A DNA stretch of 32,854 bases from a virus. Positions 20,801-32,854 of the stretch are shown here, in pieces. Numbering within the stretch: position 1 is the first letter of the stretch; each line of letters starts with the position of its first letter. The stretch covers positions 1-32,854 of IMG/VR virus record IMGVR_UViG_3300048064_000196, one strand, 5' to 3'. A program made the translations under genes and the position numbers. A model generated the notes under the pieces. It searched no databases and was not told the origin of the DNA. It saw nothing but the letters and a program-made list of their open reading frames with translations.

Positions 20801-21029
20801 AGGACTCAAACTCACCTGACTTTGTATTAAAGGTGCGTATATGAAAATTATAAAAGTGCTTAAATATTTTATTGTTAGCTTTTGAGGCAGGAACATTAAA
20901 GGTTCTTGTAAAATCTGTAAATACTTTAGATATATCTTTAATATCCTGTATTGATTGAGTAAGTGTTATACTCTCATCCTTATACAGTTCTACCTCTTTA
21001 CCCTCTATATATAATTGTAGCTGTAACAT
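17856..21029 (-). CDS. Large tail tip / baseplate protein (1057 aa)
   Basis: Largest protein of the window. The N-terminus (LQLYIEGKEVELYKDESITL, then DISKVFTDFTRTFNVPAS) belongs to a type common in Bacteroidetes phage tails, where it probably forms the tail tip. A middle part has many beta segments. Residues ~740-770 contain a Pro/Asp linker (LDDPNPPNDPEPVYDETP), followed by a fibronectin-III-like stretch (VTAPTTTSVFFNHQI ... YYWRFYARTNT). The final ~150 residues may be a small binding domain. It overlaps the small gene after it (ATGA) and the gene before it by one base. Exact role unknown. Confidence 0.7.
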   Translation of the reverse strand: MLQLQLYIEGKEVELYKDESITLTQSIQDIKDISKVFTDFTRTFNVPASKANNKIFKHFYNFHIRTFNTKSGEFESYDARKKKEAELLLNHKPFKEGRIKFEGVQLKNNEPHTYKLTFFGNTINLKDILGEDKLSNLAQLSLFDFEYNDTNIITYMANGKDVNFFGGTIEDAIIFPLITHTGRLLFDVSNANDATNNIYNVHPLAGATNNHGVPLSQLKPAIRLYAIVKAIENQVGYNLQFSSDFFNSTNLNFYKLYMWLHNKEGGLFQDQDAQYQITGFNNVVGDVAQIQGVTNKTFVNSYNEENEERVLRVNVRPSSTASYNLVIKQDGEEFQRFDNLTGITTNGIADFKNEDIELPNGTYTFFIETDVVSDYDVDFSVDSKVRGIFSGNKTITVKDATASFATDKDVNITTIIPDMKVIDFITGLFKMFNLTAYQNESGTIVIQPLDDFFAASTKVWDITKDLDKKETTVNSILPFKDISFKYKSTGSFLANNHKELSNKDWGSLEYKMQEKYDGKNYTVELPFEHFKYEHLYTTDAGVIQTTTTADGDEKKTDSGIQYGYSVDEKQAPYLGEPLIFYANTSLSSVRVINLDGSANATAVSGVYMPSNSTGILNVFGTSFYQTLNFNAEYEEYSRQVNQTTLFKTYYKGYVEDMFDKRKRLTTVKAYLPLELLVKLNLADKIIVFDDIYRINKITTNFETNLSTLELTNIFEEVTYKTIKYVAQNCLTVDTSKTQTDNNILTVDAGCETDFVIPDLTLDDPNPPNDPEPVYDETPLEVTPPVIAEYTVTAPTTTSVFFNHQITELGKLGDTPQVDEYGFVYSTSLSDISSSDDVIQLFNTGNVYFVPYTPLNPNFAVPKIVNYEKSGLTHPQTYYWRFYARTNTDPAHAEATAISEVFTASTVAAPVSQFRNTTGEYFSDYHTINNWAYFLQNQSFTTNSDHPLVAGLSGQEIRPQLTAEAYTLQDAKKIVEWFTSVANPQIETLYSISHTFEYYDSTGTMIYQMVDVSDAQIMYAVNGFNQLTTFIVGGTFTEQQPYIQGVFGNSGDFKSTSG

Positions 21030-22012
21030 TAACGTACATTGTTTATTCTGTCAAACGCAAATTCAAAGTTAACGGTGTAGTTTATTAGTTTGTCATTTAG
21101 TACTGTTTTATATTGTAATGATTTAGATGCAGGTATTATGGGTAATGTTTTACCCTCGTATCTTATCCACACATTTTCGCTAAAGAATAGTTCTTCAATA
21201 GTTTGATTCATATCCTCTTTAACAAATCCTGTGTTCATAGACAAACTTGTTTGTGAGTTTACATTATACCTTTGACGCTGCCCTTCGTATGTTTGATACG
21301 TTGAGGTTGCGTTTGCTATTGTGTTACGTTTAAAAGTTTCATCTGTTACATTAGTTGTTTCTGATGTTCTCTTAAAGAAGTACAAATCTTGAAACGCTCC
21401 ATATTTGTTTGCAAACGTAATTTTAAAAGGTGTGTATTTAGGTTCACATAAGTTTGTTACTGTAATTGTTTTAAGTAATGTAGAATCATCTGTATCGTAA
21501 ACCTGTATTGTGCTACTATCAGCAGGAATAGTTACATACTGTATCTTTTGATTTGTATTGCCATTGTCTGTAATTTCTGTATCTACTGAATCTATTTTAA
21601 CCTTTCCCACACCCTCTGCAAATATTGGTAGTTTTCCTGCGGTTGATTCGGGTAAATAAATATTATCTGCACTTATTAAAGCGTGTCTTGATAGTTCAGG
21701 ATTAGTGCCATCTTCAAAATATCCATACCCATCTGTTGCTATAAAATTAAATGCTTCAGGGTTGCTATATGTATAAGGACTATCTGATTCATCGTAATAA
21801 TAAACCACCGCCTTTACCCACCTTGTTTCAGAAACGTAGTCATCGTTAAATGATAATTCCAAATAATCTCTTACAAGTTCGCCTATTTCAAGCGTAATAT
21901 TGTTATGAGTGTCTATTCTTGCTTTGTTTATTTCGTATTGTGGAACTGTAGGTTGATTACCTATTAACCCTTCCCAAATATACAAATCTACTTCTACTCT
22001 TTTAAGTGCCAT
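21029..22012 (-). CDS. Tail structural protein (327 aa)
   Basis: Beta-rich protein, possibly a distal-tail or baseplate component. Visible landmarks are VDLYIWEGLIG near the start, LVRDYLELSFNDDYVSETRW, a glycine-poor middle with TIPADSSTIQVYD, and CEPKYTPFKITFANKYGAFQ near 190-210, followed by DLYFFKR. The same segments occur as neighbours of the 1057-residue type protein in related phages, to my recollection. It lies directly upstream of that gene (1-base overlap). Confidence 0.6.
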   Translation of the reverse strand: MALKRVEVDLYIWEGLIGNQPTVPQYEINKARIDTHNNITLEIGELVRDYLELSFNDDYVSETRWVKAVVYYYDESDSPYTYSNPEAFNFIATDGYGYFEDGTNPELSRHALISADNIYLPESTAGKLPIFAEGVGKVKIDSVDTEITDNGNTNQKIQYVTIPADSSTIQVYDTDDSTLLKTITVTNLCEPKYTPFKITFANKYGAFQDLYFFKRTSETTNVTDETFKRNTIANATSTYQTYEGQRQRYNVNSQTSLSMNTGFVKEDMNQTIEELFFSENVWIRYEGKTLPIIPASKSLQYKTVLNDKLINYTVNFEFAFDRINNVR

Positions 22013-22013
22013 A

Positions 22014-23486
22014 TTATAATATTATTGCGTTGCCTGTTAAACACCCTGCTTGACAATTTGCTATCTCAACTGATAATACAATTCCTGCTGAATCTATTTG
22101 TACTGCATAGTAATCACCTACACCTACACCTGCTTGTTCTGTATTTGATGTTGCTACTGCGTAGTATAAACTTTTGCCATTAAAGGCATTACCACTTCTA
22201 CATATTTGACTACCCATTAATCCTGTTATCGTAGTTGCTGTTGAAGTTATAGCAGTAGATGTTGAATACGTAGCATCACAAAAGTCACAAGGGTCTGATT
22301 TGCCAACAGATAAAAAGAAGTTATTACTACCACATATTGAAGTAGTAGCAGGTTGTATTAATTCTTTGTCACAATCTATTTCAGTTCCTGCATCTGCGTA
22401 TCCACTCGGTATCTCTACTTGAAATGTTATGGTTCTTGTAGTGTTTGTTGTCACCGTACTTAACGGAGGGTTAGGAGGTGTAAAACTATTAACAGTAGCA
22501 CCTAATGCTGCACTACCCAAAGATATACTACCATCCTTTGCAATCTTTTGTCCTGTGAGTGAAGCTAAATCACAATCAAATATTAATGGGTCAGTTCCTG
22601 CCTGTGAAAGTGTTTTAGGGCAATATATAGAATTACCTGAATTAGTGTAACCTGGAGGTACTAATAACTTAAAAAATAAATCTACAGGTTGTGAAGATGA
22701 ACCTGTATTAGGAGAAACCTCTTCAGGACTTAACAATGCTCCACCATTTGTTAAAGATACGCCTTGTATGATTGCACTTGACTGTGGTCTTGTAATTGTA
22801 CCATCTGCTGCTATTGAACCTCCGCTTAATGGACTTGGTGTACAGCTAAATGCTACTGCTGCATCTACTGTAACTGATATAGGTTGTACTGCCTCACAAG
22901 TAGTAGGATAACTTGCATCTCTACCTAAAGCATATATAGTAGTGCTTCCTCCTATTGCGTTTGATGTTATTGTAAGTGTGCTTCCACTTAAAGCAGTTGT
23001 TGTAAGTAATGGGTCATTGTTAGATACAGCGTAAGTTGTTTCTCCTGTAAAGTAACCACTCAAATCAATATCTACTGTATCTCCATCTATATCTATTGTT
23101 TGTGATGGTATAGAACCTGATGTTGTTACTGATGGTGTACAAGGTGCTGCAGTTCCTCCTGTTCCTGCTTGTATAGTAGTTAAACCACATACATAATACA
23201 AATCAGACGAATTAGAATAAAGTCCTGCAGGTATATTCAAGCTAAATAAAACCGTTCTTTCCGTATCATTTGTTTCTACTGCAAACTTGTTATTTGCAAA
23301 GTCAGGGTCTGTACTTGTATAAGAATATATAGAACCTCTGCTTGGAGTAGGAAGTGTAATCACACCTTGATTATCTATTGAAAATCCTGTAAGGTTTGCT
23401 ACATTACAATCATAAAAAGGTAGCGGAACTGTTGGCTCATCTAAATGTAAATAAAACGGACTTCTTACGTTTATCTTTGTACTCAT
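22014..23486 (-). CDS. Repeat-containing tail protein (490 aa)
   Basis: Contains three copies of an ~80-residue unit at about 24-108, 213-297 and 302-381. The shared pattern is a Cys near the start, G.I...G.I, then TN.T/ERT..F..-IP.GY/LY, a second Cys and an L..QAG ending. Between units 1 and 2 is a cadherin/Ig-like segment (about 128-208, with DIDGDTVDIDLSGYF and TIYALGRD). The C-terminus holds another Cys-rich part (DPCDFCDATY). The paired cysteines may form disulfides in the exposed virion. Probably a tail adhesin or collar fibre. ATGA overlap with the gene before it. Confidence 0.65.
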   Translation of the reverse strand: MSTKINVRSPFYLHLDEPTVPLPFYDCNVANLTGFSIDNQGVITLPTPSRGSIYSYTSTDPDFANNKFAVETNDTERTVLFSLNIPAGLYSNSSDLYYVCGLTTIQAGTGGTAAPCTPSVTTSGSIPSQTIDIDGDTVDIDLSGYFTGETTYAVSNNDPLLTTTALSGSTLTITSNAIGGSTTIYALGRDASYPTTCEAVQPISVTVDAAVAFSCTPSPLSGGSIAADGTITRPQSSAIIQGVSLTNGGALLSPEEVSPNTGSSSQPVDLFFKLLVPPGYTNSGNSIYCPKTLSQAGTDPLIFDCDLASLTGQKIAKDGSISLGSAALGATVNSFTPPNPPLSTVTTNTTRTITFQVEIPSGYADAGTEIDCDKELIQPATTSICGSNNFFLSVGKSDPCDFCDATYSTSTAITSTATTITGLMGSQICRSGNAFNGKSLYYAVATSNTEQAGVGVGDYYAVQIDSAGIVLSVEIANCQAGCLTGNAIIL

Positions 23487-24007
23487 CTTAATATATCTTC
23501 TTTTATAGTATTTTCAATATCATTAGCAAATGCTATAACTAATTCATTAGGTAGTTTATTAAATGCTTGTTCAAATGGTTTAGTAAAAAATAAACTTGGT
23601 TTTAAACCTTTTTCATATATGCTTCTTGCTATTAAATATCCTATTGTGTTATAGTTACCTTTTTTAAATTTTCCTTTTTTATCACGTAATCTTATATTAT
23701 TTTTCTTAGCCCAATCTGATAATGGTTTTACTGGAGGCATCTTTGATCTATATGAGAACGGTGTATTATATTTTGTTTTTGTACCACTTACACCTTTATC
23801 TTGAAACATACCGTAGTCCTCCATTTCAAAATATAAACGACCCTTGTCCTCTTCTAAAATATATTGAATACTTTTATAAAGTTGACCGTCTGATGATGTT
23901 GTACCTTTTGTTTTTTTTGATTTATTTTTAGAAAGTCTTGTTCTTGCTTGCTGTACTACAAACTTTCCAAATTTATTAAGTTCTTTATTTAAACTTTCTA
24001 ATCGCAT
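23483..24007 (-). CDS. HK97 gp10-like tail completion protein
   Basis: A 174-residue basic protein with the layout of the HK97 gp10 / tail-completion family: an N-terminal helix, a Lys-rich loop (KNKSKKTKGTTSSDGQLYKS), YGMFQDKGVSG at about 65-75, PVKPLSDWAKKNN, and a C-terminal YLIARSIYEKGLKPSLFF helix. It would sit at the head-tail interface. It overlaps the next gene by 4 bases and the previous one by 10. Confidence 0.72.
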   Translation of the reverse strand: MRLESLNKELNKFGKFVVQQARTRLSKNKSKKTKGTTSSDGQLYKSIQYILEEDKGRLYFEMEDYGMFQDKGVSGTKTKYNTPFSYRSKMPPVKPLSDWAKKNNIRLRDKKGKFKKGNYNTIGYLIARSIYEKGLKPSLFFTKPFEQAFNKLPNELVIAFANDIENTIKEDILR

Positions 24008-24456
24008 ATTGTCATATCGTTTTGTACTACCACATCAAATGTTGCTGCCCATCCTGCTAACTTGTTTTCAAATCTATCTACAAAAGGTTCACAGCTTACA
24101 TCTCCTTGTACTTGGTATAGGTCTGTATATAAATCACCTCTTTGCAAAATATTAATTACTCTTGTCTGTAAAGCTAATTGAGTGTTTAGTACGTCTTGTT
24201 CGTTGTCGTTTCCTACAAATATATCTTCCACCTCATCTTTGCTTATATCTACAATATCCATAGAAAGAATACTAATATTAAATGTAAGTGTTTTAGTTCC
24301 TACTGTGGTGTTGTTTACTATGATATGAGATAAAGGAAAGATAGTTTGTTTATTCAAATCAACATCATCAAGAGAACCGAATGTAACTGTATTTACAAAT
24401 GGCTCTGCTATAAGTGCATCTTTTAATTTATCTGTTACGTTGTAAAACCCTTTCAT
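23998..24456 (-). CDS. Probable tail terminator-like protein (152 aa)
   Basis: An alpha/beta protein with an N-terminal helix (FYNVTDKLKDALIAEP), a middle strand pair (KTLTFNISILSMDIVDIS), helix DVLNTQLALQTRVINILQ and a final strand AATFDVVVQND. Size, position between the gp10-like gene and the tail chaperone, and overall pattern are those of tail terminators/minor tail U-type proteins. No specific signature is seen. Its ATG overlaps the stop of the frameshifted chaperone frame (ATGA). Confidence 0.6.
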   Translation of the reverse strand: MKGFYNVTDKLKDALIAEPFVNTVTFGSLDDVDLNKQTIFPLSHIIVNNTTVGTKTLTFNISILSMDIVDISKDEVEDIFVGNDNEQDVLNTQLALQTRVINILQRGDLYTDLYQVQGDVSCEPFVDRFENKLAGWAATFDVVVQNDMTICD

Positions 24457-24704
24457 CGTTTCTTAATCAGTTTCTTTTCTAATTCTATTTTATCTTTTTC
24501 AAATGCCAAATACATTAAGCACTCGTGTACGTTGAGTTTGGTAACCTCATCAAACTTGGTAACATCTCCTTTAGAGATTCCATAGACTGATTGATACCAA
24601 CCCCACTTGCTTCCAAACGTTCCTTCTGTTGAGTAGTCAGCTTGTTCGCTTCCTTCTGTAAATAGTTCAGGATAATTTGTATTAACTCGTTGTTTAAATT
24701 CCAA
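24453..24704 (-). CDS. Tail assembly chaperone C-terminal extension, reached by -1 frameshift
   Basis: A second frame that overlaps the 3' end of the chaperone gene for 190 bases. It encodes FKQRVNTNYPELF, then an aromatic FGSKWGWYQSVYGIS segment and LNVHECLMYLAFEKDKIELE. Its only initiation-like codon is TTG inside a nine-T run, so independent translation is unlikely. A -1 slip at the T run would join residues 1-161 of the upstream protein to these 83 codons, giving ~244 residues, like the G/GT pair of lambda-type phages. The stop forms ATGA with the next gene, showing that ribosomes are expected to finish in this frame. A sequencing error in the homopolymer is the alternative. Confidence 0.7.
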   Translation of the reverse strand: MEFKQRVNTNYPELFTEGSEQADYSTEGTFGSKWGWYQSVYGISKGDVTKFDEVTKLNVHECLMYLAFEKDKIELEKKLIKKR

Positions 24705-25186
24705 AAAAAAACCATAGCAGCAAAGACAACATCTAAAGGCATATACTTTAATCTGTCGTTCATTCCGTTATAGGTTTCTATATTATACCTGTGTCCTTTC
24801 TTAAATGTAATTGGTCTGTATAGAACGCTCATAGCTTTGTGCATACTTTGCCAATCTCCCAAGTTCTCATCAAGGTCTATATACTCTCCTAAAGTCATAT
24901 CATCTAATACAGGTATAAAACCGTATTCTACACCTGCTAATTCAAAAGTAGGAATCAATGTGTGCTTTGTATCAAATACTTTGTTTAGGTGTACTGCTAT
25001 CTCTTGTACTGACTTGTATTTAATCTCTGCTACATCCTTTAAGTCAAGGTTGCAAAATATCTCTACCATCTTTTGAAGCAAGAATAAAGAATCTTTGTTA
25101 TCCTCTGTATTTAGTTTTTCAAACTTTTGATACTGCTCTAAAGTTATTTCGTTAAGACTATCAGGTACGTTTATTTCAACTCTCAT
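24515..25186 (-). CDS. Tail assembly chaperone, unshifted form (223 aa)
   Basis: Mainly helical protein starting MRVEINVPDSLNEITLEQYQ, with LLQKMVEIFCNLD, then a beta part (LAGVEYGFIPVLDDMTLGEY) and a helical C-terminus. The size, position well upstream of the tape measure gene, and an overlapping -1 frame match tail assembly chaperone G-type proteins. The last 62 residues after the slip site (e.g. LTTQQKERLEASGVGINQSM) still look like real protein, so both frames appear to be coding. It starts right after a motif copy. Confidence 0.68.
   Translation of the reverse strand: MRVEINVPDSLNEITLEQYQKFEKLNTEDNKDSLFLLQKMVEIFCNLDLKDVAEIKYKSVQEIAVHLNKVFDTKHTLIPTFELAGVEYGFIPVLDDMTLGEYIDLDENLGDWQSMHKAMSVLYRPITFKKGHRYNIETYNGMNDRLKYMPLDVVFAAMVFFWNLNNELIQIILNYLQKEANKLTTQQKERLEASGVGINQSMESLKEMLPSLMRLPNSTYTSA
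24703..24712 (-). other. Slippery site for -1 frameshift
   Basis: The minus strand reads G followed by nine T, then GG. In frame it is GTT TTT TTT TGG, so it contains the heptamer T TTT TTT in the X XXY YYZ register. After a -1 slip the next codon is TTG GAA, opening the extension frame. Confidence 0.7.
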
Positions 25187-25192
25187 ATTATT

Positions 25193-25216
25193 ACAATAAA
25201 TAAATCACTATTATGT
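25193..25216 (-). promoter_or_regulatory. Repeated late motif, copy F (one mismatch)
   Basis: The minus strand reads ACAT (one base off), 16 bases, TTGT, then AATAAT and the ATG at 25186. It lies directly after the terminator 25218-25248, parallel to copy C. Confidence 0.62.
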
Positions 25217-25217
25217 A

Positions 25218-25248
25218 TAAAAAGAAAAAGGCAACATTTCTGCTGCCT
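25218..25248 (-). terminator. Rho-independent terminator before tail operon
   Basis: The minus-strand RNA forms a 7-bp stem AGGCAGC/GUUGCCU (one G-U pair, orientation-specific) with a 6-base loop, then U5-C-U5. It ends the terminase-proximal transcripts. Confidence 0.83.
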
Positions 25249-25273
25249 AATTCCCACTTAAAAACAAATTTAA

Positions 25274-25489
25274 TTAACTATTTAAAATGAATCTTTTATA
25301 AGCGTATCTGTACGCTGTTTCTATTGCCTCTTCTAATTCTTTACTATTCTGTTGGTATGTTTCACTTCCCTCTACATTACCTTTGCCTTTGTAGTCTATA
25401 TATAAGGTTACGTCAGAACCTTTTTGACCTCCACGCTTTGTTGGTTTCTGCACTACATATATTTCTTCGTACCAACATCTTTCTCTCAT
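25274..25489 (-). CDS. Hypothetical protein (71 aa)
   Basis: Starts MRERCWYEEIYVVQKPTKRG, has a short beta part (DVTLYIDYKGKGNVEG) and a helical end (ELEEAIETAYRYAYKRFIL). Function unknown. The start one base past the upstream stop is preferred over a Met at 25504 inside the preceding gene. Its terminator marks the end of the unit. Confidence 0.62.
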   Translation of the reverse strand: MRERCWYEEIYVVQKPTKRGGQKGSDVTLYIDYKGKGNVEGSETYQQNSKELEEAIETAYRYAYKRFILNS

Positions 25490-25490
25490 C

Positions 25491-25691
25491 TTAAAATAAT
25501 CCAATTACTTTATCGCTAAATTCGTCTGCCCATAAGATAAAGTATAAGAACATATACATTGATGCGTAGGCTAATCCTACAAATGCAGCAGCTTGTGCTA
25601 TAACTTTTAATACGTTCTTCCGATTCTCTTTCTTTGTTAGTTCTTTAATTAAAATGTACTCTGTTTGATTTTCCATAATTGTTGTATTCAT
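25491..25691 (-). CDS. Small single-pass membrane protein (66 aa)
   Basis: A charged N-terminal region (EYILIKELTKKENRKN) is followed by a hydrophobic helix at about 32-56 (AAAFVGLAYASMYMFLYFILW) and a short acidic/hydrophobic tail. The start may be 25691 or the Met at 25676. It lies between the large terminase and the tail chaperone block, an unusual place for a membrane protein; superinfection exclusion is one possibility, not shown by the sequence. Confidence 0.6.
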   Translation of the reverse strand: MNTTIMENQTEYILIKELTKKENRKNVLKVIAQAAAFVGLAYASMYMFLYFILWADEFSDKVIGLF

Positions 25692-25737
25692 TAAACTTTG
25701 TTTATACGAATATATAAACTTTTTTTAACAAAACAAA

Positions 25738-26904
25738 TTAGTAGATATAATATTCTCCTTTATTAGGATTCTCTAATTGGTCTGTTAATACGTAACGTAA
25801 ACTATCTATGCAGTCAGGGTGTTCTCCTGATGGTTTATTTAGTGTATTGCCCTCTTTATCTTTTGCCCATATATAACCTTGTAGTTCTCTTTTTAGATTC
25901 CTGCTTCTTGCTGTAACGTATATTTCATTTTGATTAATAAGATTAATACCAAAGTTTACGCTATCTCTTCCTTTTGTACAGGGATATATATTATGCCCAT
26001 CTCTTCTTAAAGTTTCTATACTCTTTGGTTCTGCTGAATCTGCAATCAGGTTTTCTTTTATATTGTTTTGAGTAAGAAACAAAGATAAATCCCTTAATAC
26101 TGTATTAGATTTATAGAACACCTCATCAGCTATGTAAGCATCATTCCACTTGTATAAAGAAATTACTACAGTAGGGTCGTTATATCCAAAATCAACTCCG
26201 TGTGCTAATATACGAGCATCTTCAGGTATTCTATCTATCTCTTTCCAATCAGGAATACATACACCCTCTAAAGAACCTGTTTCTCCTAATCCATATACAC
26301 GCCACCAATTCGCCCAATATGTTGAAGTCTTAGCTTTGTCTTTAGCTTTCTCTATTTCTCTTACTATTGTATCGGGTAACGCATCATTGTCTTTGTAAGT
26401 GAGTGTGATGTAATCGGTGTCCTGCTTTCCTATCAGTTCTTTGTCAACCCAAAACAAGTTAGATGGATTGTAGTCTAACCATATAGTACCACTTGTTCTT
26501 ACAGCTAATTGTGTATAAGCATCAAAGGGTACATTGTTACACTCGTTAATATATAAGTCGGTTCTTCTTGCACCTCTTAGTTTGTCGGGTTGGTCTGTCG
26601 AAAAGAACTCAATATAGCTTCCGTTTGTAAAGGAGTACTTTAAGGTACTTTTATTGTATTGACTATCTTTATATCTATTAAGTCCTTTTAATATAGAAAT
26701 AAAATCCTTAACACAACCTCTACGCAGGTGTGGAATAGATTCAGATACTACACTAATTTCTCTGCCTTTGTTTCTTATAGCATAATCAATAAGTAAACAA
26801 AGTATGGATATGGTTTTACTCGCACTTGTTCCACCTTTAACTATTCGTGTCCTGCTTTGTAAATCCTTTAGCTTATAAAAGGCTATTGTTTTCTTTACCT
26901 TCAT
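25738..26904 (-). CDS. terL: Terminase large subunit
   Basis: A 388-residue packaging motor and nuclease. The ATPase has a Walker A-like GGTSASKT at 24-31, a coupling-type segment ending in SYIEFFSTDQPDKLRG, and Walker B LYINECNN with Glu121. The nuclease domain shows GVDFGYNDPT with Asp238, LIADSAEP with Asp289 and HPDCIDSLRYVLTD with Asp364/367. It resembles the PBSX-type terminases, slightly short compared with 400-450 residues. It follows the small subunit by 30 bases. Confidence 0.93.
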   Translation of the reverse strand: MKVKKTIAFYKLKDLQSRTRIVKGGTSASKTISILCLLIDYAIRNKGREISVVSESIPHLRRGCVKDFISILKGLNRYKDSQYNKSTLKYSFTNGSYIEFFSTDQPDKLRGARRTDLYINECNNVPFDAYTQLAVRTSGTIWLDYNPSNLFWVDKELIGKQDTDYITLTYKDNDALPDTIVREIEKAKDKAKTSTYWANWWRVYGLGETGSLEGVCIPDWKEIDRIPEDARILAHGVDFGYNDPTVVISLYKWNDAYIADEVFYKSNTVLRDLSLFLTQNNIKENLIADSAEPKSIETLRRDGHNIYPCTKGRDSVNFGINLINQNEIYVTARSRNLKRELQGYIWAKDKEGNTLNKPSGEHPDCIDSLRYVLTDQLENPNKGEYYIY

Positions 26905-26934
26905 ATAGAATGAAGTGTAGGGTTTTAGTTATCC

Positions 26935-27180
26935 CTAATCCTCCATAAACAACGGTATGTCCTCGTTGATTGTAATGTCTCTTGTTTCTCTTGGTTTACC
27001 TAAATAATAGTTGAGGTATAATTGAATCCATTTAATATCTCCTGATTTAACACCTTCTGTTAATGCAGCTAAAGCATCATCTTCTAAAGGACTTAAACGC
27101 TCTACTAATTTAATTTCATCAGCTTTAGGTTTACGCCCTGCTCCTGCTCTTGCACCTCCATTATTTATCCTTTTATCCAT
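26935..27180 (-). CDS. Terminase small subunit-like protein (81 aa)
   Basis: A short protein with a basic GGARAGAGRKPKADEIKLVE N-terminus of a type found at the start of small terminases, then a helical part (LEDDALAALTEGVKSGDIKW) and YLGKPRETRDI, also common to these. It should recognise phage DNA and load the large subunit. It is shorter than usual small subunits (about 140-180), so it may be a minimal form. It is the first gene after motif copy A. Confidence 0.72.
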   Translation of the reverse strand: MDKRINNGGARAGAGRKPKADEIKLVERLSPLEDDALAALTEGVKSGDIKWIQLYLNYYLGKPRETRDITINEDIPLFMED

Positions 27181-27206
27181 TTGAAAAAGATTGTTTATTC
27201 AATTAT

Positions 27207-27230
27207 ACAATAAAATATTAAGTACTTTGT
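27207..27230 (-). promoter_or_regulatory. Repeated late motif, copy A (terminase operon)
   Basis: The minus strand reads ACAA, 16 bases, TTGT, continuing ATAATTG. Its upstream half-site touches the TAA stop of the PAPS-reductase-like gene. Located 26 bases before the small terminase ATG. Confidence 0.78.
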
Positions 27231-28078
27231 TAAATTCCACAATAACCTGAATCACATTCGTTGAAGTCATCTTCAAACATATTCATTTGTTTAAAGCTGT
27301 TTCTTATCTGTTCGTATGTTACTCCGTTTTTAAATGTTCTTACGTTATATCCTGTTTCTTGTTCAGCTTGTACAAACCAATCATATTTACTTGGATGCTT
27401 TTCACTCATTAACTTTAACAAAACTTCATTCCTGTGGAAACATCCTATACAATTATTCATATAAGCAAATCTTACAGGTTTATCTTTCCAATACTCTTCT
27501 ATATTATCTTTGTATATATTAGCATCTATTAATGGAAACACAGGTTTTTGCCATCCTATATCTGCCCACTTGTTTTGTGTTTTTCGTTTTCCTACTATTG
27601 TTTTGTGGGTAAGCAATCCATCTTCATTTAATCTCTCGTACATTTTCTTCGCTCTACGTTGTTCATTTGCTCTATAACCTATTCTTGTTTCTATTGGTTT
27701 GTTTACTTCTTTCTGCCACCAATTAAATATAGGATTAAGTTTCATTTCCGTAGTACAAAATCTTTGTGTTACGTTTGGTAAATACTTTTTGCCATTTCTT
27801 AATATTATCTCATCAAATGTTTTTCCTGTGACCCAAGTAATCTTTCTTCCTATGTATTGTTCAAGGTCTAACATTGTATAGATTATCATATCATCTTCTG
27901 CAGTAGCAATAAATGGTGCTTGTATTCTATCTTCTACTTCTTGCCTTATCTTTTTGTCAGGAAATTTAGACTGTTCGTGTTCAATTCTTACTAAAGCGAA
28001 CACATCGTAGTCTGCAGGATAGTTAGCTGCTATGTAGGATGAGGTTTTACCTCCACTTAAAGAGTTTACAGTAATCAT
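27230..28078 (-). CDS. PP-loop protein of the PAPS reductase family
   Basis: A 282-residue N-type ATP pyrophosphatase. The PP-loop SGGKTS is at 8-13 (Thr where SGGKDS is more common), RFCTTEMKLNP at 106-116 is a typical family segment, and cysteines lie at C108, C210 and C213 (NCIGC) plus C275 and C280 at the very end (ECDSGYCG). Members activate substrates by adenylation and often move sulfur; phage versions have no proven single role. A link to DNA modification is suggested by the methyltransferase and ParB-like genes upstream. It overlaps the preceding stop by one base. Confidence 0.82.
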   Translation of the reverse strand: MITVNSLSGGKTSSYIAANYPADYDVFALVRIEHEQSKFPDKKIRQEVEDRIQAPFIATAEDDMIIYTMLDLEQYIGRKITWVTGKTFDEIILRNGKKYLPNVTQRFCTTEMKLNPIFNWWQKEVNKPIETRIGYRANEQRRAKKMYERLNEDGLLTHKTIVGKRKTQNKWADIGWQKPVFPLIDANIYKDNIEEYWKDKPVRFAYMNNCIGCFHRNEVLLKLMSEKHPSKYDWFVQAEQETGYNVRTFKNGVTYEQIRNSFKQMNMFEDDFNECDSGYCGI

Positions 28079-28533
28079 TAATTGATAAATCCATACTTAG
28101 TGTAGAACTTTTCTCTTTTATGATGCTTATTGTACAGTTGCTCATATTCTTTTGCCATTTGTTCTATTGTTTCTTCTTGGTCTTTTACCTTTTCTTTTAA
28201 GGCAGCATATCTCAGTAAGATACTTTCATCGAGTTGTAATAGTTCTTCTTTGTCATCTTCTATATTCCTTATTTTCTTTCTTAGAACTATGTAGTTGTTT
28301 TTTATTCTCGTATCTCGCTCTATCCAAATATCAAGTTGATTTATTCCGTGCAGTACACTTGCGTAATGTAAGTTCACAACCTCCCCTATTGCTGCAAGGC
28401 TTAATCTTGTATTTTGTCTTGTTAGTTTGAAGAACATTGCCCTTGCTTCTACGTATTCTCTTTTACGTGTTTTAGTGTCTAACTTTAGGTCAAAGTAGTG
28501 TTCTACTATTTCTTTAATCGTTTCTTTGTTCAT
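28078..28533 (-). CDS. DnaA domain IV-like DNA-binding protein
   Basis: A 151-residue protein. About residues 22-70 match the DnaA C-terminal DNA-binding domain: RKREYVEARAMFFKLTRQ, then the helix-turn-helix SLAAIGEVVNLHYASVLHGI, where bacterial DnaA has the DHTTVLH signature. The ATPase domains of DnaA are absent. The second half is a long charged coiled coil (about 85-140, LDESILLRYAALKEKVKDQE...). It may bind DnaA boxes of phage or host, either helping initiation or blocking host DnaA. Confidence 0.78.
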   Translation of the reverse strand: MNKETIKEIVEHYFDLKLDTKTRKREYVEARAMFFKLTRQNTRLSLAAIGEVVNLHYASVLHGINQLDIWIERDTRIKNNYIVLRKKIRNIEDDKEELLQLDESILLRYAALKEKVKDQEETIEQMAKEYEQLYNKHHKREKFYTKYGFIN

Positions 28534-28777
28534 TATCTAATTTATTAATTATATCTCTTATTGTCATATAGCCTGATTCGTGTATTGCTTTAAGGATTCC
28601 TGCGCAGGCTTCGTATTCTTCCTCTTGTTCATATAGGTCTATCGCTTCTTCAAGTTCTATTATATCTCTTCCTCCCGATATATCTATTAAAGCAAGTAAG
28701 TAAAATTCTTCTATTAAATCTTTATTCAAAATTCTTTTTATAGTTACTTCTTTCCACTTGTAATTTATAAAATTCAA
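28514..28777 (-). CDS. Hypothetical protein (87 aa)
   Basis: Acidic helical protein with two recognisable helices (LIEEFYLLALIDIS; ELEEAIDLYEQEEEYEACAG) and an ESGYMTIRDIINKL C-terminus. The start overlaps the upstream gene by 56 bases, more than is usual here; a non-ATG start nearer its end (for example GTG at 28747) would reduce this. Function unknown. Confidence 0.55.
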   Translation of the reverse strand: MNFINYKWKEVTIKRILNKDLIEEFYLLALIDISGGRDIIELEEAIDLYEQEEEYEACAGILKAIHESGYMTIRDIINKLDNEQRND

Positions 28778-29051
28778 ATGCTCTAAATCCTGTTATGTGT
28801 GAATCAGTAGGAACAAGATACTTCCATCCTTTTGACTTTCCTCTATTTATATAATAAAATAAAAAAGCTGCAAGTTTACCTGTGTTCTTTTTAAATATAA
28901 CAGTAGCTGTATGGTCGCTTGTTGGTATTATCTCTGCTATTTGAAATGTTTCTTCATTGTAATTACCTTCTCTGTTTTTTTGAGAATATCTATTACAAAC
29001 ATTATTTGCAAACAAATCAAGTTCTTTGGCTATCTCTTTATTCATTTTCAA
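28722..29051 (-). CDS. Hypothetical protein (109 aa)
   Basis: Begins KEIAKELDLFANNVCNRYSQ, followed by a beta hairpin-like part (TATVIFKKNTGKLAAFLFYY) and the motif RGKSKGWKYLVPTDSHITGF. The Gly/Trp/Pro-containing middle and basic C-terminus look like a small DNA- or nucleotide-handling protein, but no family is recognised. It overlaps the methyltransferase by 14 bases and is in the same operon. Confidence 0.6.
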   Translation of the reverse strand: MKMNKEIAKELDLFANNVCNRYSQKNREGNYNEETFQIAEIIPTSDHTATVIFKKNTGKLAAFLFYYINRGKSKGWKYLVPTDSHITGFRAFEFYKLQVERSNYKKNFE

Positions 29052-29694
29052 AAATATCTAATTGATTTTCGTTTTGTTTTCTTATTATACCTAAAGCTGT
29101 TTCAAGTATTGTTTTTCCTGCCTCATAATCTACAAGGTTTCTTGCCATTTTTTGCTTTGATTGTTTTCCTTTGTATTTAGTAAAATCATAATCGTGAAAT
29201 TTTGATAGTGCCTTAACGACTTGTGTTGTTCTGCATAAATCAGGATTTTTTCTTTCATTAATATTTGCAGGTAAATTAAAATTAGTCCAATATAAATGCC
29301 TCCCTCGTTTTTTTGCAGGTATCAAAGGTTCATAATACGGTATTACGTTTTCAACAACATACTTGCCTTCGTAAAATGTATCTAAAAATATAATCTCTTG
29401 ATATAATCTCATATCAGGATATTTCATATCTCTTACATTTTTCTGTGATAATTGTATTCTCGAATGAGTAGGACAAGGAGGAGAACTCCATATAAAATCA
29501 TATTCTTTATAATGGTCTAAAAGATATTGGTGTGCATCTGCTACTACCACTTTATCATTTGGAAATCTTTCTTGATATAATTTAGCTGCTTCAGGGTCAT
29601 ATTCTACAGCAGTAACATCTACATCGGTTACTTCATCCCATTTATATCTATTACCACCAAGACAAGCATATAGGTTTAATATTTTCATTATCAT
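29038..29694 (-). CDS. DNA (cytosine-5) methyltransferase, compact
   Basis: A 218-residue C5-type cytosine methyltransferase. The motif I-like LNLYACLGGN is at 6-15 (usual FxGxGG altered), VEYDPEAAKLY at 30-40 fits motif II, SSPPCPTHSR at 70-79 is motif IV with catalytic C74, VVENVIPYY at 113-121 is motif VI, and RRHLYW-like GRHLYW (131-136) resembles motif VIII. It is shorter than standalone bacterial enzymes (usually above 300), and a target-recognition region between VIII and IX is hardly present. Probably protects phage DNA. Overlaps ParB-like stop (ATGA). Confidence 0.8.
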   Translation of the reverse strand: MIMKILNLYACLGGNRYKWDEVTDVDVTAVEYDPEAAKLYQERFPNDKVVVADAHQYLLDHYKEYDFIWSSPPCPTHSRIQLSQKNVRDMKYPDMRLYQEIIFLDTFYEGKYVVENVIPYYEPLIPAKKRGRHLYWTNFNLPANINERKNPDLCRTTQVVKALSKFHDYDFTKYKGKQSKQKMARNLVDYEAGKTILETALGIIRKQNENQLDIFENE

Positions 29695-30467
29695 ATCATA
29701 TTTTGTTTTATAATTGGGTAATATGTTTTCATAACAACCTCTTCAAACCAATAATCAAATCCTTTATCTCCATCAGGTAATGGTTCTTCTGTTGTGTTTA
29801 AGTGAGTGTTTGCGGCTAATAAGAAGGCTTGTAGAACTTTATATCTTATATCATCTCCACTATTATAGATTAATTCAGCTGCGCAATAAGTTATTTTAGA
29901 GTTTGCTTTTTTCTTACCATTTGATACAACAAAGTTCTTCATTGCCTCTAATAGTGTTTCGGAAAAATCTTTATCTAATATCTTTAATTTTCCTTTCTTC
30001 ACTGAATTGTGTTGCCTCCTGACTCCATCAAAACAACTTACTATAGAACCTACAGAAAGTACATTATTATAATTCTTAACTTTATCTAAAAGATATTCGT
30101 AATTTTCTTTTTTCAAATCTGCCCAAGATTTTATACTATCTATTAAATCCCAAGCCTTATTGTGAGCATTAAGAGAAATGATAAATCTTTGTATTTCTTC
30201 TACATCATCATCTAACCAATCTATAATACTACAAGGAACTTCTTTAACTCCGTGTAATTTTAAAGCAGAAACCCTATGTTGTCCTTCTGCTGCCCAATAA
30301 AAATCATCTTCAGGAATTACTTTAATTGTATCTGCAAATCCATAAGTGTCTATTAAATCATACATCTTTTGTATATGTGATTCATAAGTACCCCTATTCC
30401 CTTTAATAAACCTTATTTTGTTGATAGGTATCATTTCAACTCTTGCTATTTTAATATTTGTTCTCAT
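29691..30467 (-). CDS. ParB-like nuclease/CTPase-fold protein
   Basis: A 258-residue protein. The N-terminal ParB/Srx-type domain runs from about 10 to 85: PINKIRFIKGNRG, a helix with MYDLIDTYGFADTIKVIPED and the signature AEGQHRVSALKLHG (60-73, GQHR at 62-65). The rest is helical with no HTH I can identify. In phages such proteins adjoin DNA-modification genes rather than partition systems; no ParA is present here. It starts after a 51-base gap that may hold a promoter. Its role may be nuclease or modification accessory. Confidence 0.78.
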   Translation of the reverse strand: MRTNIKIARVEMIPINKIRFIKGNRGTYESHIQKMYDLIDTYGFADTIKVIPEDDFYWAAEGQHRVSALKLHGVKEVPCSIIDWLDDDVEEIQRFIISLNAHNKAWDLIDSIKSWADLKKENYEYLLDKVKNYNNVLSVGSIVSCFDGVRRQHNSVKKGKLKILDKDFSETLLEAMKNFVVSNGKKKANSKITYCAAELIYNSGDDIRYKVLQAFLLAANTHLNTTEEPLPDGDKGFDYWFEEVVMKTYYPIIKQNMI

Positions 30468-30518
30468 AATTATTGTATTTATTCTTTGTGCTTACTCTAT
30501 TAGGTTTTCAGCTTCCCC

Positions 30519-31286
30519 TTATAATATTCCTCTCATTACATATTGGTCTAAATCATTCTCTTCTTGAAAGAAGTATTTATAGTTGTCTACTGCTTGTCTG
30601 AATTTGTTCTCGCCTCTTGCTAAAAACTCATCACTAACATCAAATATTCCTATATCAGTACTTGCTTTGTCAATCACTAAAAAGGTAAACTTCTCCTTCT
30701 TAAACATTTTAAGATACAACCACGCTTGTAAATCATATCCATACTTGTCTGCACTATACCTAAATGTAGAAAGGTCGGCAGAGGTCTTTAAATCAATTAA
30801 AGTATCTCCCTGTATAATATCCGCTTTGCCTCTAAAAGCTAATCCCTCTATCATATCTATTGCAGGTACTTCAAACTCTGATTTAGTAAGTAGTTTGAGT
30901 GCTGCTTCATTTCTTAATACTGCATCTGCTAATCTTTCCGCTGCACTTCTTTCTTTTGTAAGAAACACTTCTCCATATTGTTTTTTTGCATCCTTGTACT
31001 TGTTAGTATTCTTTGTGGAAGCATCTACAAAATGTAGCTTATCTACTTTGTGTGGTTCAAGTACCATCCAATGCACTAACTTACCTGCTGCTAATGCAGG
31101 GCTGTCTCCGTTAGTATCTCCATACTTTAAAATATTCCTGTAAGTCTTTGGACTCTTTAAGATTGTTTTAAGGGATGAACTACTTAATGCGTGTTGCCCA
31201 AGATGACCATAGTAAAAAGTGTCATCGTGCATCTGTGCAAGGATTTCTTCCTTACCCCAAGTTTCTCCGTTTAATAGTGTAATCAT
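30519..31286 (-). CDS. PD-(D/E)XK exonuclease (RecE/DUF3799-like)
   Basis: A 255-residue 5'-3' exonuclease of the RecE/YqaJ superfamily. AAGKLVHWMVLEP at about 66-78 is the conserved helix seen in this family, FRGKADII at 151-158 holds the catalytic Asp156, and LIDLKTS at 163-169 provides D165-x-K167. YDLQAWLYLKMF (184-195) is the usual following helix. It should resect DNA ends for the ERF annealing protein. I choose MITLLNGETW at 31286 because the stop of a 50-codon gene overlaps it as ATGA; an earlier Met at 31340 would run inside that gene. Confidence 0.86.
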   Translation of the reverse strand: MITLLNGETWGKEEILAQMHDDTFYYGHLGQHALSSSSLKTILKSPKTYRNILKYGDTNGDSPALAAGKLVHWMVLEPHKVDKLHFVDASTKNTNKYKDAKKQYGEVFLTKERSAAERLADAVLRNEAALKLLTKSEFEVPAIDMIEGLAFRGKADIIQGDTLIDLKTSADLSTFRYSADKYGYDLQAWLYLKMFKKEKFTFLVIDKASTDIGIFDVSDEFLARGENKFRQAVDNYKYFFQEENDLDQYVMRGIL

Positions 31287-31435
31287 AATCTTGTAATTTC
31301 TGTTTGTTGTTCTTTTCTTCTGTTCAATTCTTGCTGACACCTATCTACGTATCCATCAAGAAATTCGTGAGTATTAATTACTCTTTGTAATTCGTGGTCT
31401 GTCATAGACCTGTAATAAAGTTCTTCGTATGTCAT
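31283..31435 (-). CDS. Small charged protein (50 aa)
   Basis: Starts MTYEELYYRSMTDHELQRVI and is helical and strongly charged (NRRKEQQTEITRL at the end). Its TGA overlaps the exonuclease ATG (ATGA), and it follows an AT-rich leader of 26 bases. It may modulate the exonuclease by position; function unknown. Confidence 0.68.
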   Translation of the reverse strand: MTYEELYYRSMTDHELQRVINTHEFLDGYVDRCQQELNRRKEQQTEITRL

Positions 31436-31461
31436 AATATTGTTTTTGTAAATATAAACAA

Positions 31462-31590
31462 TTATTTAACATCTTCCTCTTTTGGGAAAACTTTTTTTTC
31501 TAATTTCTCTAATCTGTTTAGTGCAACTACTAAGGCTTGTTGTGTTAGCTTTAAATCGTGTTGCATCTTTACTAATGTAGATTCTTTCAT
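31462..31590 (-). CDS. Short coiled-coil protein (42 aa)
   Basis: Starts MKESTLVKMQHDLKLTQQAL and has Leu/Val at heptad positions (VALNRLEKLEKKVF), giving a clear coiled-coil prediction, with an acidic end. The start overlaps the stop of the upstream gene as ATGA, which favours 31590 over a longer frame to 31662. Function unknown. Confidence 0.66.
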   Translation of the reverse strand: MKESTLVKMQHDLKLTQQALVVALNRLEKLEKKVFPKEEDVK

Positions 31591-31853
31591 TTGTTTAGAT
31601 TTTTTATCTTTTCTAAATACAGTATGAAATCCATAGCTTCTTCCTGTGCGTGTTGTACCCACTTATAGAATCCATCAGGAGAATCGTACAGGGTAGTTCC
31701 GTATTTCAAGATACCATCTCTACTTCTTGCCCTCATAGTATTTATAACATCTTCAACTATTGGGTCTTTCTTTATATCATTGTGAGAATAAGTTGAATCA
31801 GCTGTCCATCTATCCTCATTCATTTCAAACCATTTTTTTACACTATCGCTCAT
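31587..31853 (-). CDS. Possible nucleotide pyrophosphohydrolase-like protein (88 aa)
   Basis: Starts MSDSVKKWFEMNEDRWTADS. The second half, RSRDGILKYGTTLYDSPDGF followed by WVQHAQEEAMDFILYLEK, resembles small MazG/dATPase-related phage proteins in which an EExxD cluster binds metal. Here E-E-A-M-D is at about 71-75. It might trim the nucleotide pool, but it is short and not conclusive. Confidence 0.5.
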   Translation of the reverse strand: MSDSVKKWFEMNEDRWTADSTYSHNDIKKDPIVEDVINTMRARSRDGILKYGTTLYDSPDGFYKWVQHAQEEAMDFILYLEKIKNLNK

Positions 31854-31935
31854 TTCTTTCTTTATATGTTTTTACTATCATTGCTTCTAACATTCTTAAA
31901 ACACCGTAACCAAGTAATATTTTAAAGACCAACAT
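31843..31935 (-). CDS. Possible tiny membrane peptide (30 aa)
   Basis: Short frame reading MLVFKILLGYGVLRMLEAMI followed by a basic VKTYKERNER end. It overlaps both neighbours by 11-14 bases and fills the only gap between them. A single hydrophobic helix with a basic tail is plausible, but a chance frame is possible. Confidence 0.4.
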   Translation of the reverse strand: MLVFKILLGYGVLRMLEAMIVKTYKERNER

Positions 31936-32236
31936 TTAATTTTGTTCTTAGTTTATCTACTTCTGTTCTTAAATGTGCCACTTCTTTTTCTGCACTTCTT
32001 GCTCTTTCTACTGCACGTATCTTATCACTACGGTATTCGCTTAGTGATTGTTCGTATAACCTCTCATTAGTTATTAGATTGTGTACATAGAATCCTACTT
32101 CTTGCCAAGCGAAGTACATTTCGTTTAATGGTTCGTTTTCAGGTTTTGCTTTTCTTGATTTAACAATGTACTCACCAACGTAATTAAAGTTAGCGTAGTA
32201 CTCCCCTTCCTTGAAATTGTTTAGTTTCTTGTTCAT
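31922..32236 (-). CDS. Hypothetical protein with C-terminal coiled coil (104 aa)
   Basis: The N-terminal 55 residues are beta-like (GEYYANFNYVGEYIVKSRK, then MYFAWQEVGFYVHN). The C-terminal 40 residues form a clear coiled coil (AEKEVAHLRTEVDKLRTKL). Function unknown. The start overlaps the previous stop by 4 bases. Confidence 0.65.
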   Translation of the reverse strand: MNKKLNNFKEGEYYANFNYVGEYIVKSRKAKPENEPLNEMYFAWQEVGFYVHNLITNERLYEQSLSEYRSDKIRAVERARSAEKEVAHLRTEVDKLRTKLNVGL

Positions 32237-32613
32237 AATATTTCTGCATCAGTTACATCTAACATTGCAACTTCTTTTGGTATTTTATTATTGTTCTTAA
32301 ACTCTGTTGTTTTGTTGTGATATTGTATTTCCCAATTTGGTTCTACAATATATAAATTAAATCTATATATGCCTTTGGGTGTTGAATTTATGTACATAGG
32401 AATATCTAAATTGTCATTACATTTTTCTATCATAGCATCATACTTTTTCTTTTCAATAAGTAAAGTGTCGTAATGTTTGCCTCTACACTTTAATTCAATC
32501 CTATGATAAGTTTCGGGACTGTAACAATCCCAACGACTCATTTGACTTTTTGCCCAAACTAAATCGGAATAACAACAATCTATAAGATACTCAAAAAGTT
32601 GTTTTTCCTTCAT
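32233..32613 (-). CDS. Hypothetical protein, right copy (126 aa, complete)
   Basis: Complete version of the protein truncated at the left edge. It has an N-terminal helical part (KEKQLFEYLIDCCYSDLVWA), a segment with CRGKHYDTLLIEKKKYD and a beta-like second half (GIYRFNLYIVEPNWEIQYHN). Base differences from the left copy are mostly silent. The ATG overlaps the previous stop as ATGA. Unknown function; could be a PD-(D/E)XK- or VRR-like small fold, but no catalytic motif is clear. Confidence 0.75.
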   Translation of the reverse strand: MKEKQLFEYLIDCCYSDLVWAKSQMSRWDCYSPETYHRIELKCRGKHYDTLLIEKKKYDAMIEKCNDNLDIPMYINSTPKGIYRFNLYIVEPNWEIQYHNKTTEFKNNNKIPKEVAMLDVTDAEIL

Positions 32614-32854
32614 AAATATTGATTATAAACCGCTACTAAATCCTTGTAAACTATTTTACCAAAACTACAAGGTGTGCATTCTACTTTTGTTTTAAAAATT
32701 CTCTCATAGATAGCTACAAAAACATTTTGTTCATCAGGAGTAAATCTATTCTTTTTAGTATCTACTGCCATCTTAATTAACTCAAATTCCGATTCCGTTA
32801 AACATTCGGGTTTCTTATATCTAAATACTTGATTTAATTTTTCTTGCCTTTCGT
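32296..32854. repeat. Right copy of divergent terminal duplication
   Basis: Colinear partner of 1-559, without indels. It carries most of the 126-codon gene and the 3' part of the 138-codon gene. The window ends inside the repeat. Confidence 0.9.
32610..32854 (-). CDS. Hypothetical Cys-containing protein, right copy, 5' end cut off
   Basis: C-terminal ~80 residues of a homologue of the protein at 315-731, including YKKPECLTE and KVECTPCSFGK with all Cys preserved in this part. About 66 of 80 residues are identical; the differences cluster in a short stretch around TPDEQNVFVAIYER. Its 5' end lies outside the window. Confidence 0.75.
   Translation of the reverse strand, partial: ERQEKLNQVFRYKKPECLTESEFELIKMAVDTKKNRFTPDEQNVFVAIYERIFKTKVECTPCSFGKIVYKDLVAVYNQYL

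Follow-up and report, generated by a model that had tools for sequence, protein, structure and literature searches.

IMG/VR virus record IMGVR_UViG_3300048064_000196 (32,854 bp; the window below means this whole stretch) carries on its minus strand a ParB-like gene followed directly by the gene of a compact cytosine C5 DNA methylase. These two genes, a candidate DNA-modification cassette of a phage, are the subject of this analysis. An initial annotation had named six open reading frames (ORFs) in an overlapping run, and all six were confirmed at the coordinates given here, on the minus strand. In the direction of transcription the order of the region is RecE-like exonuclease, ParB-like protein, C5 methylase, 109-aa ORF, 87-aa ORF, DnaA-C-like protein, PP-loop protein, presumed terminase small subunit (TerS) and terminase large subunit (TerL). 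The ParB and methylase genes share a 4-base ATGA overlap. The features of the pair are as follows.

30489..30521, minus strand: Rfam DUF805b (RF02914), a cis-regulatory RNA element that lies after the stop of RecE and ahead of ParB (38.4 bits; gathering cut-off 35.6)
29691..30467, minus strand: ParB/Srx-fold protein of 258 aa with an EGQHR box (PHROG ParB families, best 3.5e-9), the partner gene of the methylase
29038..29694, minus strand: compact C5 DNA methylase of 218 aa with a complete catalytic core (by Pfam, alignment and model)
29152..29490, minus strand: exchangeable block of the methylase, codons 69-181, the presumed recognition block (block swap against locus L122; 6/18 gene pairs)
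29416..29457, minus strand: hypervariable segment 1, codons 80-93, 3' of the PPC catalytic motif (mean entropy 1.98 bits; the 178 columns outside both segments average 0.56)
29191..29268, minus strand: hypervariable segment 2, codons 143-168 (mean entropy 1.89 bits), which we take to be the usual position of a target-recognition domain

The counts below were drawn mainly from four scans of viral contigs: the best 80 of at least 597 loci for TerL, the best 80 of at least 597 for the methylase, the best 80 of 138 confirmed loci for the PP-loop protein and the best 80 of 233 confirmed for an alignment of ParB relatives. The 80 TerL relatives and the window form a co-occurrence set of 81 loci. In 54 of them a RecE match lies upstream and the stretch from RecE to TerL is complete, while the other 27 were left out because the available DNA showed no RecE match upstream. 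The interval between RecE and the 87-aa and DnaA-like genes is called the slot. ORFs were chosen greedily, longest first, so that overlapping genes may be missed, and many loci end at a contig edge. Near-duplicate contigs (L206/L207, L234/L235, L271/L273 and others) were kept in, and therefore the p-values are optimistic. The ParB scan also shares some contigs with the other scans (for example, L278, L289, L303, L314 and L332 are the contigs of L170, L119, L144, L077 and L036, respectively).

The ParB-like protein and its link to methylases

Besides the PHROG families, the ParB-like protein matched NCBIfam SerK (1.1e-7, below the cut-off of that model). No Pfam ParB family was among its matches at E <= 1, and a search of phage records with the protein matched nothing. 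In the alignment of the window protein with 16 of 23 representatives (n=17), the residues N24, R25, G62 and R65 are invariant (17/17), and G62 and R65 correspond to the nucleotide-pocket glycine and the P-motif arginine. A passage of PMC12704722 describes the P-motif arginine as required for nucleotide binding in ParB folds.

With the window ParB alone, the viral-contig scan returned 4 relatives; an alignment query, consisting of the window and 12 of the aligned relatives, was used instead. The gene after ParB, taken as the next plus-strand ORF of at least 60 aa, could be assigned in 79 loci. It codes for a compact C5 methylase in 33 of these and for a DPPY-type amino-methylase in 24; 2 loci have a large C5 methylase at this position and 20 have another gene, which gives a methylase in 59/79 (the amino-methylase and large C5 clusters were named by eye from motifs). 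Within the slot, 12 of 14 ParB genes, the window included, are followed directly by a methylase or Mom. Judged from this gene order, the ParB-methylase pair is real.

The DUF805b element was compared between loci with and without ParB. The Rfam model matched 6/8 ParB loci and 0/8 loci without ParB (p 0.007). A model built from seven copies found the element in 11/14 slot ParB loci, six of which had served to build it, and in 1/40 others; this lone locus without ParB is L241, where the element stands ahead of an amino-methylase. In the wider ParB set, a strong match was present in 7/80 loci, and therefore DUF805b marks the ParB cassette of this lineage and not ParB generally. A literature search on the DUF805 element found nothing.

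In the window the conserved element lies about 21 nt ahead of ParB, which raises a doubtful but serious alternative: the ParB-like protein would regulate transcription of the cassette, or serve in partition, and would take no direct part in modification. DndB, a member of the ParB superfamily, is described in PMC10853773 as an ATP-dependent repressor. On the other hand, a methylase also follows ParB where DUF805b is absent. In addition, no ParA gene was found beside ParB, whose neighbours in the window are the RecE-like exonuclease and the methylase.

A base methylase or Mom is found in 25 of the slot loci; of these, 12 contain ParB, 9 a PD-(D/E)XK-like gene and 0 both (Fisher p 0.0005 in the 25 and p 0.09 over the 54, uncorrected for relatedness); the PD-(D/E)XK-like call is a G-E...D...(E/D)-V-K pattern read by eye in a small protein. 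Since the two never occur together, it is suggested that ParB occupies the place of a nuclease gene. Two papers bear on this. In PMC5512222 the ParB domain of Bce_0392, which is fused to an adenine methylase, is reported to be a nonspecific nicking endonuclease. According to PMC12704722, phages often carry ParB-CTPase folds in fusion with predicted DNA methylases, and these folds bind a variety of NTPs (nucleoside triphosphates). By analogy, the ParB-like protein would most likely act as an NTP-binding DNA clamp or as a nicking nuclease. It shares with the ParB-methylase fusions (Bce_0392; phage ParB-N6N4) a ParB fold tied to a DNA methylase; in contrast, the pair described here consists of two separate overlapping genes, and the partners are C5 methylases, amino-methylases and Mom.

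The compact methylase and its exchangeable block

The methylase matched Pfam PF00145 (C5 DNA_methylase, 2.8e-9, 37.3 bits against a cut-off of 22) over residues 3-82 only, and TIGR00675 at 20.4 bits, below the cut-off of 100.65. For the alignment, the window protein and 45 of 101 ORFs were used after thinning at 82% identity (n=46). CLGG, PPC, ENV and RH.YW are invariant in all 46, the invariant residues including C74 in SPPCP, E115-N116-V117, R132-H133 and N186, which we take to belong to the PPC, ENV, arginine and C-terminal Asn motifs of C5 enzymes. The best AlphaFold2 model (mean pLDDT 80.8, pTM 0.82) was aligned over 197 residues with a chain of the Dnmt3a-Dnmt3L complex (Z 14.0) and over 195 residues with positions 10-327 of M.HhaI (1fjx; Z 13.3). 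Therefore, the whole C5 core is predicted to be present, but it lacks most of the target-recognition domain. What the enzyme has in common with known C5 DNA methylases (M.HhaI, M.HaeIII, DNMT3A; PF00145) is the PPC/ENV catalytic core and a fold match over almost its whole length. The difference from M.HhaI lies between R132 and N186, where there are 54 residues here, hypervariable and within the exchanged block, and about 140 residues between the corresponding motifs in M.HhaI.

The earlier description of this methylase as having almost no target-recognition domain was right with regard to size, as a full-sized domain is absent from the 218 aa, but a short hypervariable region is present. The two segments together cover 40/218 positions and contain 25 of the 40 most variable columns, a number matched by 0/217 circular shifts.

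From sequence and model, this minimal C5 methylase probably makes 5-methylcytosine (5mC) in the phage's own DNA. Neither TET nor TET-associated glycosyltransferase (TAGT) relatives were found among the ORFs of window positions 18001-32854, and so the product is probably plain 5mC. This differs from the phage TET/TAGT cassettes, which nevertheless resemble the present case in that TET and TAGT occupy the same slot in relatives. At locus L008 the small methylase occurs with both; on one strand, a compact methylase, a 56-aa ORF, a 72-aa ORF, TET, a 151-aa ORF and TAGT stand in succession, which looks like a complete 5mC hypermodification cassette. The order of methylase, TET and TAGT at L008 argues for 5mC in DNA as the product of the methylase.

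A Dnmt2-like tRNA cytosine methylase would be another interpretation of so small an enzyme. In the PDB, DNMT2 proteins give the best sequence matches (E 0.0055), and human DNMT2 heads the Foldseek rows. However, the Z values for Dnmt3a and M.HhaI are slightly above that for Dnmt2 (6fdf, 12.4), although this is a near tie; DNA-modification enzymes are found among the gene neighbours in several phages; and the hypervariable exchanged segments fit the evasion of restriction sites better than a fixed tRNA position. We therefore consider a tRNA enzyme improbable.

The neighbourhoods point to an enzyme that acts alone. Across 81 methylase loci there is no constant neighbour, the commonest being the DnaA-like gene, at most two genes away in 26. 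In one-per-species bacterial and archaeal genomes, 32 methylase loci were confirmed, again with no constant partner. In Gordonia phage Margaret the compact methylase and some small hypothetical genes separate the terminase genes; two annotated DNA methylases flank it in Flavobacterium phage stinky9-1, and in a Vibrio phage it is found among small genes.

When the window was compared with loci L122/L039, the last 300 or so bases of ParB were 98-100% identical and the stretch around the methylase start 84%. Within the methylase the identity is 96-100% over codons 15-65 or so, drops to 42-84% as far as codon 181 or so, and is then 100% and 90%. Farther out, RecE is 90% and the 87-aa gene 82% identical, and the 109-aa gene is absent. 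Amino-acid differences amount to 43/111 inside codons 69-181 and 4/95 outside; for third codon positions the values are 49/111 and 8/95 (p 4e-9). The third-position contrast therefore indicates an imported block, beyond what selection on amino acids alone would produce. Locus L121 follows the pattern of L122 in its amino-acid differences (41/113 inside, 6/95 outside). The methylase of L002, a locus without ParB, is like that of the window throughout (6/113 inside, 8/95 outside).

The same pattern was then counted over 110 distinct methylase genes. There are 18 pairs whose ends are at least 95% identical; the block is below 85% identity (64-74%) in 6 of these and at least 95% in 9. With equal-length blocks placed elsewhere, 1, 0, 0 and 0 swap-type pairs were obtained, compared with 6. 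The reverse pattern, with a block of at least 93% and ends below 85% identity, was seen in 3 pairs, and in 0 when the block identity was set at 95%. Related phages thus exchange this segment of the methylase as one block, and the segment presumably determines recognition. The recognition region likely lies inside the methylase and is itself exchanged, as far as sequences can tell.

Taken together, we consider it probable that the ParB-like protein and the minimal, stand-alone C5 methylase form a phage DNA-modification cassette, in which the specificity of the methylase would be exchanged and the ParB-like protein would bind NTPs and perhaps nick DNA. In such a cassette, the methylase would make 5mC in the DNA of the phage itself and would recognise its sites unaided, by means of the loop that follows PPC and the hypervariable region of about 26 residues that would replace the normal target-recognition domain. 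Recombination that swaps codons 69-181 or so would change the protected sites, and the changed methylation could protect phage DNA against differing restriction enzymes of the hosts. The ParB-like protein would act on incompletely modified or competing DNA, or would time the modification. It may be a general partner, because it pairs with methylases of several unrelated families and stays in place when one block is replaced by another.

Several points weigh against the cassette as a probable reading. For the ParB link, the gene next to ParB is not a recognised methylase in 20/79 loci, and ParB adjoins just 8/80 compact methylases in the best methylase loci; from 59/79 against 8/80, ParB is mostly found with a methylase and the methylase mostly without ParB. 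In the 54 loci, the methylase-ParB association by itself reaches p 0.067. The ParB scan cannot count as blind, since methylase-anchored loci supplied 4 of the 12 query relatives, and a nuclease or clamp activity is proposed by analogy only. For the exchange, the third-position test reaches significance neither for L121 (p 0.11) nor for L002 (p 0.19), where the difference runs in the opposite direction, and the swap counts are small (10/110 genes) with pairs that share members. The hypervariable segments and the block limits 69-181 were chosen after the alignments had been viewed. The structure model is uneven: the means of the five models range from pLDDT 80.8 to 50.8, and in the best model the blocks 71-80, 121-130 and 131-150 average 66, 50 and 69-72, respectively, 121-130 being the weakest interior part.

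A bolder version of the cassette, which we rate as unlikely, would join a widespread phage family of self-sufficient minimal C5 methylases, which need no more than a loop and some 26 residues to read their sites and are re-targeted in nature by a swap of about 110 codons, to an allele-blind ParB nuclease arm, giving a two-gene restriction-modification-like system that serves C5, N6/N4 and Mom modification. If the cassette is real, its C5 methylases would be sequence-specific enzymes of very small size, and their natural alleles would differ chiefly in the recognition block. They would give a direct route to the minimum number of residues needed for DNA recognition and a source of small laboratory methylases of chosen specificity. 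Through the ParB link, the function of orphan phage ParB proteins could be put to the test. Among the papers listed by the literature searches, none concerns, judging from titles and the beginnings of abstracts, a small phage C5 methylase that lacks a normal recognition domain or the pairing of such an enzyme with ParB; the two papers on ParB-methylase fusions were found in this way.

Constant genes, cargo and the exchange slot

The genes on both sides of the pair are listed here.

30519..31340, minus strand: RecE-like exonuclease (DUF3799 / PHROG exonuclease VIII; Pfam 1.9e-21, PHROG 1.5e-37), left border of the slot and outside the cassette
28722..29051, minus strand: 109-aa ORF without assigned function, optional cargo by neighbour counts (28722..29045 from the ATG at 29045, where its relatives start)
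28514..28777, minus strand: 87-aa ORF, near-constant in the phage group (47/54 loci), outside the cassette
28078..28533, minus strand: DnaA C-terminal-domain protein (Pfam Bac_DnaA_C 1.2e-9), constant (54/54 loci), outside the cassette
27230..28078, minus strand: PP-loop ATP-pyrophosphatase-like protein (PHROG 424; SspD-like), separate cargo adjoining the terminase
26935..27180, minus strand: presumed terminase small subunit, by its position before TerL; its sole PHROG match is without known function
25738..26904, minus strand: terminase large subunit (Pfam Terminase_3 3.2e-14), anchor of the co-occurrence set

All 54 complete loci have the DnaA-like gene and 47 have the 87-aa gene; ParB was found by profile in 12, the compact methylase occurs in 5, and the PP-loop and 109-aa genes in 3 each. 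From these counts, the overlapping run is therefore a mixture of constant genes and cargo. The slot holds a recognised DNA-modification enzyme in 35/54 loci, is empty in 9/54 and has other content in 10/54. The cargo, named by Pfam and PHROG on one representative per cluster, consists of an N6_N4 methylase in 13 loci and a second type of it in 3, MT-A70 in 3, the compact C5 methylase in 3, Mom in 2, a further methylase in 1, Tet_JBP dioxygenase in 7 (three of these with a direct TAGT match) and thymidylate synthase with a MazG-like protein in 3. By its content, the interval from RecE to the 87-aa and DnaA-like genes is an exchange slot for DNA modification, and at this single place one phage group would switch between 5mC, amino-methylation, Mom, TET/glycosyl and thymidylate-synthase-type modification.

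Some of the slot contents deserve separate mention. In all 9 of the 9 loci with the small PD-(D/E)XK-like protein (L206, L207, L241, L251, L271, L272, L273, L275 and L124), it adjoins a methylase; these are possible phage-borne restriction-modification pairs. The thymidylate synthase-like gene and the MazG-like protein occur in L208, L221 and L233, possibly as a route to a modified pyrimidine nucleotide. Among 10 TET/JBP loci, 8 (L151, L239, L245, L248, L249, L250, L267 and L268) have neither kind of C5 methylase in the available DNA, and three of the eight match TAGT. In such loci TET may oxidise thymine, or a methylase may be encoded elsewhere.

The PP-loop gene and the small ORFs

The PP-loop protein matched PHROG 424 'PAPS reductase' (3.7e-24) and PADLOC SspD (1.6e-11). 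Its alignment comprises the window protein and 40 of 84 ORFs thinned at 88% (n=41). At E <= 0.01, the SspD profile matches 41/41 of these proteins and DndC 8/41, whereas Pfam PAPS-reductase matches none of the 41; for this last reason, a role of the gene in CysH-type sulfate assimilation was rejected. SGGKTS, C108, C210, C213, C275 and C280 are invariant in all 41. The protein is also encoded by the cultured Cellulophaga phage phi19:3. According to PMC10853773, DndC has a cysteine dyad in addition to three cysteines that carry a 4Fe-4S centre. The best row for the structure model is the PAPS reductase 7rge (Z 11.5, root-mean-square deviation 3.6, 155 aligned), followed by GMP synthetase (10.7) and LarE (10.2); in Foldseek alone, no row reached E <= 0.001. 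The fold leaves the chemistry undecided because the rows of PAPS reductase, GMP synthetase, LarE, NcsA and TtuA are close together. By its sequence the protein is likely a sulfur-transfer enzyme, and action on DNA is possible.

The initial annotation had proposed one operon for DNA modification that includes the PP-loop gene, as would follow if the ParB-like protein, the C5 methylase and the PP-loop enzyme formed one hypermodification pathway, sulfur-containing or other. The three genes do lie in a single overlapping run, and L039 and L170 also hold all three. The protein is like DndC and SspD in its PP-loop fold, in the SspD profile matches and in having three invariant cysteines and a cysteine pair, the cysteines being compared by count. 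Moreover, PMC10853773 presents DndB as a ParB-superfamily protein and SspD as the equivalent of DndC. However, among 16 window proteins scanned against PADLOC (the six-gene run and ten others), no DndD-DndE, SspB-SspC or other Dnd/Ssp partner was found. The PP-loop gene occurs in 6/80 of the best methylase loci and 5/80 of the best ParB loci (4-kb flanks), and its association with the methylase in the 54 loci is absent (p 0.26). In its own best 80 viral loci, TerS or TerL adjoins it directly in 41 and a methylase is found anywhere in 9. A common pathway is thus quite improbable. Of the proposed operon, a modification function and the ParB-methylase link are supported, while the PP-loop gene is most likely a separate, independently gained passenger beside the terminase.

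Very improbable is a split methylase in which the 109-aa or the 87-aa protein is a separate target-recognition subunit, as the initial annotation had offered for the ORFs at 28722-29051 and 28514-28777: both lie directly downstream of a methylase that lacks a normal-sized recognition domain, the 109-aa ORF has a weak match to a Type I specificity subunit (E 0.016), and of the 54 loci, 2/3 with the 109-aa gene and 3/51 without it carry the methylase (p 0.02), but the 109-aa gene is found in 7/80 of the best methylase loci and the methylase in 6/38 loci of the 109-aa gene, 42 of the 47 loci with the 87-aa gene have no methylase, L122 has ParB and a methylase with the other block and no match to the 109-aa gene, and the annotated neighbours in other phages show the methylase without either gene. 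The split methylase was rejected on this co-occurrence and on L122, despite the p 0.02 and a ParB-109-aa association of p 0.009. With regard to the 87-aa ORF itself, its true start is probably further in, because 27 of its 37 thinned relatives have 70-76 aa.

Two observations concern the record as a whole. The GC skew is positive (+0.158) in a single 1-kb block, 18001-19000, which lies inside a long ORF and in which no tandem repeat was found, and it is negative in the 31 other blocks. The ends of the record, 1-557 and 32296-32852, form a direct repeat of 557 bases with 88.7% identity, so that the record may represent a nearly complete genome, circular or permuted, in which strains vary at the join, or may have a duplicated end.

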